Part shown: one piece after another, positions 40,283 through 43,620 of the stretch | Layout: each line of letters starts with the position of its first letter | How positions within the stretch are numbered: the first letter of the stretch is position 1 | Assembly: GCA_003140095.1 (NCBI GenBank) | Contig: PLIU01000077.1 | Location: 1 to 43,620, forward strand | DNA from: Verrucomicrobiales bacterium | Lineage (GTDB): Bacteria; Verrucomicrobiota; Verrucomicrobiia; Limisphaerales; Palsa-1400 | DNA length: 43,620 nucleotides | Direction of reading: 5' to 3' | Translations under genes and position numbers: made by a program | Notes under the pieces: generated by a model | The model's database searches: none | The model's input: only the letters and a program-made list of their open reading frames with translations | Told to the model about the DNA's origin: nothing

Positions 40283-40915
40283 ATGCAAATGAATATGAAA
40301 TACTTGAAATACTTCTTGTCTCCCTCGATCGGGCTGGCACTGGCTGCCGTCTGCGCCCAATTCTCCACCCTCGCGGCGGAACCATCCGCCGCCACTGCCG
40401 CCAAAGCGGACGACCCGGAGGTGGCGGTCATCAAGACGACCGAAGGCACCATGGTGGTGCAGTTCTGGAGCGACGCGGCCCCCAAAACCATCGCCAATTT
40501 CAAGAAGCTGGCCAAGGAGGGGTTTTATGACGGCACCTGTTTTCATCGCGTCATCAAAGGTTTTATGATCCAGGGCGGCGATCCGAACACCAAGGACCCG
40601 AGCAAGGACCCATCCTCGTGGGGTATGGGCGGCCCCAATTATACCGTCGATGCCGAATTCAACGATCATTCGCATGTGCGCGGAGTCATCTCCATGGCCC
40701 GCTCCAACGACCCCAATTCCGCCGGCAGCCAATTCTTCATCTGCCACGGGAGTCCGACCCAACTTGACCATCATTACACCACTTTCGGCAAATTGATCAA
40801 AGGCGACGAGGTGTTGGAGAAAATCGCCACCACGCCCACCAATCCGCAAGACCGGCCGGACAAACGGATGGACATCATCAGCATTAAAATCGTCGCGCTC
40901 AGCACGGTCAAATAA
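40283..40915 (+). CDS. Peptidyl-prolyl cis-trans isomerase (cyclophilin), signal-peptide bearing
   Basis: FYDGTCFHRVIKGFMIQGGDPNTKDPSKD..GVISMARSNDPNSAGSQFFICHG. Confidence 0.95.
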   Translation: MQMNMKYLKYFLSPSIGLALAAVCAQFSTLAAEPSAATAAKADDPEVAVIKTTEGTMVVQFWSDAAPKTIANFKKLAKEGFYDGTCFHRVIKGFMIQGGDPNTKDPSKDPSSWGMGGPNYTVDAEFNDHSHVRGVISMARSNDPNSAGSQFFICHGSPTQLDHHYTTFGKLIKGDEVLEKIATTPTNPQDRPDKRMDIISIKIVALSTVK

Positions 40916-40925
40916 GGAGGACTAT

Positions 40926-41423
40926 ATGGCGGAGAAGGAACTGGCAATCATCAAAACGACCGAAGGCGACCTGGTGGTGGAGTTTTGGCCGGAGGTCGCC
41001 CCCAAGACGGTGGAGAATTTCAAGACGCTGGCGCGCAAGGGATTTTACGACGGGACCTGCTTTCACCGCGTGATCAAGGGCTTTATGATCCAGGGCGGCG
41101 ACCCGAACACTAAAGACCCATCCAAGGAATCCAGTTGGGGCACCGGCGGCCCCGGCCACACGGTCAAGGCCGAGTTCAGCGACCGCTCGCACACGCGCGG
41201 GGTGCTGTCCATGGCGCGCTCCAATCATCCCGATTCGGCCGGGAGCCAATTCTTCATCTGCCACGGCAACGCCAAGTTCCTGGACGGGCAATACACCGCG
41301 TTCGGAAAGGTAATCAAAGGGGACGAAGTGCTGGAAAAGATCGCGACCACCCCGACGCGCCAGCCCGACCGGCCCAACAAACGGATGGGAGTGGAAAGCG
41401 TCACGATTCAGCCGGCGGCGTAG
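40926..41423 (+). CDS. Peptidyl-prolyl cis-trans isomerase (cyclophilin), no signal peptide
   Basis: FYDGTCFHRVIKGFMIQGGDPNTKDPSKESSWGTGG..GVLSMARSNHPDSAGSQFFICHG. Confidence 0.95.
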   Translation: MAEKELAIIKTTEGDLVVEFWPEVAPKTVENFKTLARKGFYDGTCFHRVIKGFMIQGGDPNTKDPSKESSWGTGGPGHTVKAEFSDRSHTRGVLSMARSNHPDSAGSQFFICHGNAKFLDGQYTAFGKVIKGDEVLEKIATTPTRQPDRPNKRMGVESVTIQPAA

Positions 41424-41989: not shown

Positions 41990-42141
41990 ACGCGAAGGGC
42001 GAAGGCTTAGCGCGGCGAAGCCGCAACAAAAGGATTGACCAATGATTTCACGGATGGATGCAGGGATGGTTTTGAACAGAGGAAACGAAGCCAACAGGCG
42101 TCGTTAAAGGTATTTCGCAATGGCCGGGAGACCGTGTTCCC

Positions 42142-42463
42142 CACCAGATTATTGACACCATCGCGTTCGAAGGCGACATCCCCGTGCTGGCGACAGGCAG
42201 CATTGGCTCCTCAATGGTACCCGAAAGCATTCGGGTGCTGCTGGGGGTATTGGGTCAGCGGGGCGGTGTCGATTCCGCAAGGCGCGTATGGCCCAGATTT
42301 CATCGCGAAATTGAAGGCGCGAGGCTTGAAGGTGACCGAGATGCCCGCCAAGACCGTCGTGGGTCAGCGTGGTACTCTTGCCGCAGTGACAATCGACCCG
42401 AAGACTGGCAAACGCACAGCGGCAAACCAACCGGGTGTCATGGTTTTCAATGACGCGGAATGA
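42142..42463 (+). pseudogene. Frameshifted 3' remnant of a gamma-glutamyltranspeptidase-like gene
   Basis: HQIIDTIAFEGDIPVLATGSIGSSMVPESIRVLLGVLGQ then other frame GAVSIPQGAYGPDFIAKLKARGLKVTEMPAKTVVGQRGTLAAVTIDPKTGKRTAANQPGVMVFNDAE*. Confidence 0.55.
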
Positions 42464-42491: not shown

Positions 42492-42581
42492 ATTGCGCGG
42501 AGCGGCTTTCGTGAATTCTGGATCGAGGCGGCGAGGATCTCGCACCGTGGACAATCAGCCGGATACCAACCAGCGGCCTAA
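42492..42581 (+). pseudogene. Possible 3' end of a truncated cassette ORF (..GFREFWIEAARISHRGQSAGYQPAA*)
   Basis: Stop codon TAA lies inside GCCTAAC of the attC-like site, as usual for cassette genes. Confidence 0.3.
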
Positions 42582-42702
42582 CCGCGCTGGAGTCAAAGTC
42601 CACTGCCCCTTGAGTTTTTGGTTGAGATATGAAATTTGCGAGTCCACATTGCCGTCGAGAGCCAGCCGCCCGTGGCCGTGGCTCAACTTTGGATCGTTAG
42701 GC
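42576..42702 (+). other. Candidate integron attC site (127 bp): R'' GCCTAAC ... R' GTTAGGC
   Basis: Perfectly complementary terminal 7-mers matching RYYYAAC / GTTRRRY; inner partial complementarity (caaagt/actttg, ttgag/ctcaa). Confidence 0.65.
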
Positions 42703-42719
42703 ATCTCGTCGCACCGTTC

Positions 42720-43541
42720 ATGGATACAATCGCCAAAAGGCAAAGCACATGGAAAAGCCGTGATGCGTGGCTCTGTGTGCTCGCGCTGATTGTTTTTTGG
42801 TCTATTATTGTGCTTTCGCTTCGTTTTGCGACTCGCAGCAGCCCAGCATTCTCGCATTGGAGGGCGACGCCAATTGGCAAAGGAGTCCTTGACATTATTG
42901 GGAATGCTTTGTGGGTATTTGTTCCTCTTTGGTTTTCGCGTGTCGAGGCGGTCCGAGATTTTTTAGAACCTGCTGGTTTACGGCGTGCGGTCAGCATTTT
43001 TGGTTGGTGTGCAGCTTGGTTGGCAATTGCCATTGCGTTTATTGGCGCCTATGGAGGTTCCAGAGGATTGACGGCATCATCTAGACTGCACCATGGTATT
43101 GGCTTTGATGCGTCTGGCGGGGGGTGGTCCTTCTTCATGGCGTGGCCCTACTTCACTTTGTCAAGAGTCGTGATTGGTCCGTTTTGCGAAGAAGTAACCA
43201 CACGAGGATTTTTATACCCTGCGTTTCGGGGGAGTTACAGTTTCTTGGCCTCTACGGTTATTATCATTTGCTTTTCGACATATTATCATTTTGGTAGTGT
43301 TTGGCATTCGCTATTCATATTCGGCTGCTTGGCATCGCTGTGGGCATTGTTGTGCATTGTCCGCGAGCGGACTGGCAGTTTGTGGGATTGCCTGCTTTGT
43401 CATGCTGTTTACAATTTGGCCGTGCTACAGCTTTGGATTTCGGCGGTGGTTGTGTTGATATTATTTTTGCCGTTTATCATGGGCCAGATTTGGGCCAAGC
43501 GGCGAGAGACCATTTTGGCAGCACCAAACCGAGTTGCCTAA
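42720..43541 (+). CDS. CPBP-family intramembrane protease (CAAX/Abi-like), likely integron cassette gene
   Basis: Multi-TM; GPFCEEVTTRGFLYPAF (EExxxR motif), YYHFGSVWHSLFIFG, LLCHAVYNLAV; ATG 17 nt after GTTAGGC. Confidence 0.8.
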   Translation: MDTIAKRQSTWKSRDAWLCVLALIVFWSIIVLSLRFATRSSPAFSHWRATPIGKGVLDIIGNALWVFVPLWFSRVEAVRDFLEPAGLRRAVSIFGWCAAWLAIAIAFIGAYGGSRGLTASSRLHHGIGFDASGGGWSFFMAWPYFTLSRVVIGPFCEEVTTRGFLYPAFRGSYSFLASTVIIICFSTYYHFGSVWHSLFIFGCLASLWALLCIVRERTGSLWDCLLCHAVYNLAVLQLWISAVVVLILFLPFIMGQIWAKRRETILAAPNRVA

Positions 43542-43620
43542 CAAGTCGCCGCAGCCAACCGCCATTGGCACTTGCACTTCCGCCATCACGGTTCACATCA
43601 CGAGTCGGCGGTGGCTCAGC
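43536..43620 (+). other. 5' part of a second attC-like site (cut by window end)
   Basis: GCCTAACAAGTCGCCGCAGCCAACCGCC...GGCGGTGGCTCAGC; arms agcc[a]accgcc / ggcggtggct pair with a single bulged A; the gene stop TAA is within GCCTAAC. Confidence 0.7.

Follow-up and report, generated by a model that had tools for sequence, protein, structure and literature searches.

A CPBP protease gene cassette with a downstream attC site in a Verrucomicrobiales genome, probably a cluster of attC sites lacking an integrase

Does the membrane protease gene at the right edge of this stretch belong to an integron gene cassette and, if so, to what kind of integron? The window, that is, the whole stretch of 43,620 nucleotides analysed here (C21:1-43620), comes from a host assembly of 7.8 Mb in 515 contigs that is 89% complete. 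In the reading that we prefer, to which we give a probability of about 0.88, a single CPBP cassette with its downstream attC site follows a more degenerate attC site in a CALIN (an attC cluster that lacks an integron integrase), the cassette was inserted through the integron integrase IntI, and the encoded protease is probably active. The features concerned are as follows.

42576..42702, + strand: attC site 1 (probable), with core boxes and held-out covariance-model matches
42697..43620, + strand: gene cassette between two like-oriented attC sites, extending past the window into the scaffold gap
42720..43541, + strand: CPBP/Rce1-like intramembrane protease of 273 aa (PF02517)
43536..43620, + strand: attC site 2, 85 bp to the window end, with a held-out covariance-model match

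These limits of the cassette would apply because the cut point of attC is G^TTRRRY. The gene starts with an ATG at 42720, 17 nt past the GTTAGGC box of site 1, and its TAA (43539-43541) lies inside the GCCTAAC box of site 2 (43536-43542); the initial annotation had pointed out both features, and both were borne out. Site 1 ends 834 bp before site 2, and the locus comprises these two sites only.

The sites were examined with two covariance models, R1, built from ten related sites, and R2, built from 69 sites of the order, with both window sites left out of each. R1 found both sites in the same orientation as the CPBP gene between them, and its next match in the window scored 13 bits. For site 2, the scores were 73.3 bits (E 8e-19) with R1 and 74.4 bits with R2. 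A covariance-model search had been proposed with the initial annotation, and both sites were matched by our own held-out models. Complementary core boxes were found (both boxes at site 1, the first box at site 2), together with an L''/L' stem with an extrahelical base. In site 2, AGCCA (43553-43557) pairs with TGGCT (43612-43616) and CCGCC (43559-43563) pairs with GGCGG (43607-43611), leaving one A unpaired between the two helices, exactly as first described. Across the 69 sites, pairing holds in 94% of the cells and 15 of the 20 stem pairs have changes on both sides, values clearly higher than those of slid controls, in an alignment that was fitted to the structure. The relatives of site 2 are 79 to 87% identical overall, with four in its own genome (79 to 85%) and more in the family. 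Because such relatives adjoin genuine integron integrases in the same family and order and the stem pairs covary, these sequence comparisons identify site 2 as an attC site beyond reasonable doubt. Single-strand MFE folding, which had also been suggested, did not help: the folds of site 1 (z +0.90) and site 2 (z -0.34) were no better than those of shuffles, and MFE was therefore not used as evidence, so that the support for the sites consists of the covariance models and the homologues. A scan against Rfam gave nothing at the gathering score; one snoRNA match (E 0.23) was set aside as chance.

Of the core boxes of site 2, only the first is readable; the second is missing because a scaffold gap, written as NN at 43621-43622, begins directly after the last base of the window. 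The contig continues to 45751. No GTTRRRY box was found directly beyond the gap on C21. Further attC sites had been expected downstream, and none was found in the remaining 2.1 kb of the contig, across the gap to its end.

About six attC sites were found in the host assembly. On contig C8, two of them surround a 97-aa lipoprotein-like ORF (L006:1295-1807), which makes a second two-attC cassette in this genome; further sites lie on C261 and C511, and decayed candidates on C494 and C390. A 22.5-bit match on C371 had no core boxes, read as coding sequence and was rejected. In the host genome (7.8 Mb, 89% complete), nothing reached the cut-off of 265 bits of the integron integrase model TIGR02249; the best match scored 86.7 bits and was read as an ordinary tyrosine recombinase. 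Since the assembly has some six attC sites but lacks an integrase above the cut-off, the locus is either a CALIN or part of an unassembled integron. The threshold for a CALIN is two attC sites (PMC9024848). The window has two within 1 kb and no integrase nearby, counting site 1, which is weak, and site 2, which is cut by the gap. The locus resembles a CALIN in that a cassette gene stands between two attC sites of one orientation and no integrase was found; it differs in its minimal size, in the right-hand site being cut by the gap, and in that the absence of an integrase is unprovable in a draft genome.

Alternatively, the integron could be complete, with its integrase and additional cassettes in sequence that was not assembled, so that the look of a CALIN would be an assembly artifact, a reading that we hold to be possible, if on the unlikely side. 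The NN gap falls exactly inside site 2, as another does inside the attC site beside intI in a related genome (G005, L036), and the host assembly is fragmented and incomplete. In addition, similar attC sites complicate assembly, and draft genomes lead to overestimates of CALINs (PMC9024848). However, a search of the 7.8-Mb assembly with the G005 IntI gave weak partial matches only and no integrase fragment close to IntI, and the other attC sites of the host are solitary or paired. A complete integron was not recovered, with no intI above the cut-off in the host assembly, which is itself incomplete. Under the preferred reading, that of a CALIN, an integron integrase of the lineage, since lost or unassembled, would have recombined the folded bottom strand of attC, and this bottom-strand recombination would have inserted the CPBP cassette into a chromosomal attC cluster.

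The left boundary of the cassette depends on site 1. Its boxes, GCCTAAC (42576-42582) and GTTAGGC (42696-42702), lie where the initial annotation had placed them, and an L'-like sequence, GTGGCTCAACTTTGGATC, precedes the second box. When the whole window was searched with 57 to 149 bp between box starts, this was the only perfect complementary RYYYAAC/GTTRRRY pair in the 43.6 kb. Site 1 was matched exactly from box to box by the held-out models, at 24.0 bits (E 1.6e-4) with R1 and at 24.8 bits (E 3.8e-4) with R2; at genome scale the match is weak (E 0.03 to 0.07), and 3 of the 20 model pairs are nonstandard. It could be argued that site 2 is a solitary attC site and the only genuine one, and that site 1 resembles one by chance or after decay, which leaves the gene unbounded on the left, since its 24 bits come close to the 22.5 bits of the C371 match without core boxes and its fold does not exceed shuffles. 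This reading is improbable, given that site 1 has perfect complementary boxes, exact model boundaries and the same orientation as site 2, and lies 17 nt ahead of the ATG and 834 bp ahead of a certain attC. Judged by its location, its orientation and its perfect boxes, site 1 is very likely an attC site, and the gene would be bounded on both sides, as in the preferred reading.

Sites of this attC family were found in 61 of 116 genomes of the order. Matches to TIGR02249 at E 1e-40 or better occurred in 44 of the 116 genomes and above the cut-off in 40; a comparison of the two lists gave 28 genomes with both a site of the family and a TIGR02249 match. Site and integrase lie on one contig in several of them (e.g., G046:C6, G049:C183, G054:C47, G081:C89, and G112:C40). 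In G005 (Verrucomicrobiales MAG bog_1405), relatives of site 2 adjoin a TIGR02249 protein that scored 277 bits against the cut-off of 265, and G004 has an array of seven sites with the spacing of cassettes. That the sites belong to a dispersed palindromic repeat with no relation to integrons, as several solitary and partly degraded host copies might suggest, is hardly credible and is contradicted by the family's linkage to integron integrases and cassette arrays in these relatives. The chromosomal integron of bog_1405 (PLGF01000075) has the same attC family as the window locus, with 86% identity to site 2, but intI stands beside its sites and its cassettes are different ones (a DUF3592 protein and a small protein). 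The G005 locus (L036:1-4371) also holds, besides the full-length intI, a partial intI copy (an ORF of 103 aa) about 2.1 kb off, each near attC sequence. Verrucomicrobiota are among the phyla with integrons (PMC8618304). Integrons in this phylum are already known, and the window locus adds a new member. For a phylum that has been sampled poorly, this gives an attC family with good support, whose model can be used to find cassettes in environmental MAGs.

The cassette gene was identified as a CPBP gene, in line with its original annotation, by a PF02517 match of 46 bits (E 6.7e-12; gathering score 22.4). CPBP proteases carry the motifs EExxxR, FxxxH, and HxxxN. The protein has EEVTTR at residues 157 to 162 (EExxxR) and HAVYN at 228 to 232 (HxxxN), and its second motif, FSTYYH, is one residue longer than the FxxxH spacing. 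With EExxxR and HxxxN present, it probably acts as an intramembrane protease of the glutamate type. It shares these two motifs, hydrophobic segments and an above-cut-off PF02517 match with the Rce1-like proteases; it differs in that its relatives, searched for in 390 genomes of the phylum, match mostly over the domain only, at about 28 to 39% identity, and a search of PDB by sequence found no match. No close homologue was found in those 390 genomes or in plasmids, and none among the contigs of its own genome. Matches in NCBIfam were weak, below the cut-off of every equivalog matched. An AlphaFold2 model made without an alignment (mean pLDDT 53, pTM 0.31) was of too low quality for a fold search. 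The GC content of the gene is 49.1%, against a mean of 57.3% for stretches of 822 bp taken from the window, of which 2.3% have a value as low as this.

Among the relatives examined in other genomes, no attC lay near a CPBP gene except in G114. In that genome, which is of the same order, contig C60 has a different PF02517 gene (21% identity to the cassette protein) with its start cut off by the contig end. The gene terminates within the core box of a short candidate attC (659-705, 21 bits), and this candidate heads an array with additional attC sites and with DUF1348, GNAT, DUF2306, and GFA cassette genes. Enrichment of CPBP genes in cassettes was considered and is not claimed, because two cases among some 330 attC sites of 13 genomes, one of them the prompting case, are too few.

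The integron-type cassette, the integrase-less attC cluster and the CPBP gene of the initial annotation held up. The defense or self-immunity role attached to them is possible; PADLOC gave no match for the cassette protein up to E 1, and no relative among those examined was found in a defense setting. Chromosomal integrons elsewhere reportedly keep a stock of anti-phage genes that escape bioinformatic detection. Vibrio integrons are described as stores of anti-phage genes in work cited in PMC12444791, and a defense role is therefore reasonable to consider. Defense, bacteriocin immunity, and envelope processing are possible roles, and the protein may cleave a membrane substrate as an accessory trait in one of them. 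The CPBP cassette is a candidate for phage protection. The broader idea that Verrucomicrobiota cassettes repeatedly carry divergent CPBP proteases for phage defense or bacteriocin immunity that are missing from defense libraries is doubtful at best. In the open-access literature on integrons with CPBP or CAAX proteases, no paper on a CPBP cassette was found by title or abstract.

Some features of the surrounding sequence were also observed. At 40283-41423 of the window lie two adjacent genes for proteins that by eye resemble each other and are of cyclophilin type, followed by a NUDIX-like ORF. The ORF at 42035-42463, upstream of the cassette, resembles, on inspection by eye, the remnant of a frameshifted gamma-glutamyltransferase gene; searched in two pieces, it had no match in Pfam. 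A 135-bp block starting with GGTGTCGCCGCGCCACTTGACGC occurs with 92% identity to the right of the window on C21 (L009:3624-5752) and on C8 (L006:1-751). It is accompanied by many short repeats of the AATCAAACC type, and both the block and the repeats flank the attC loci of C21 and C8, in opposite orientations.
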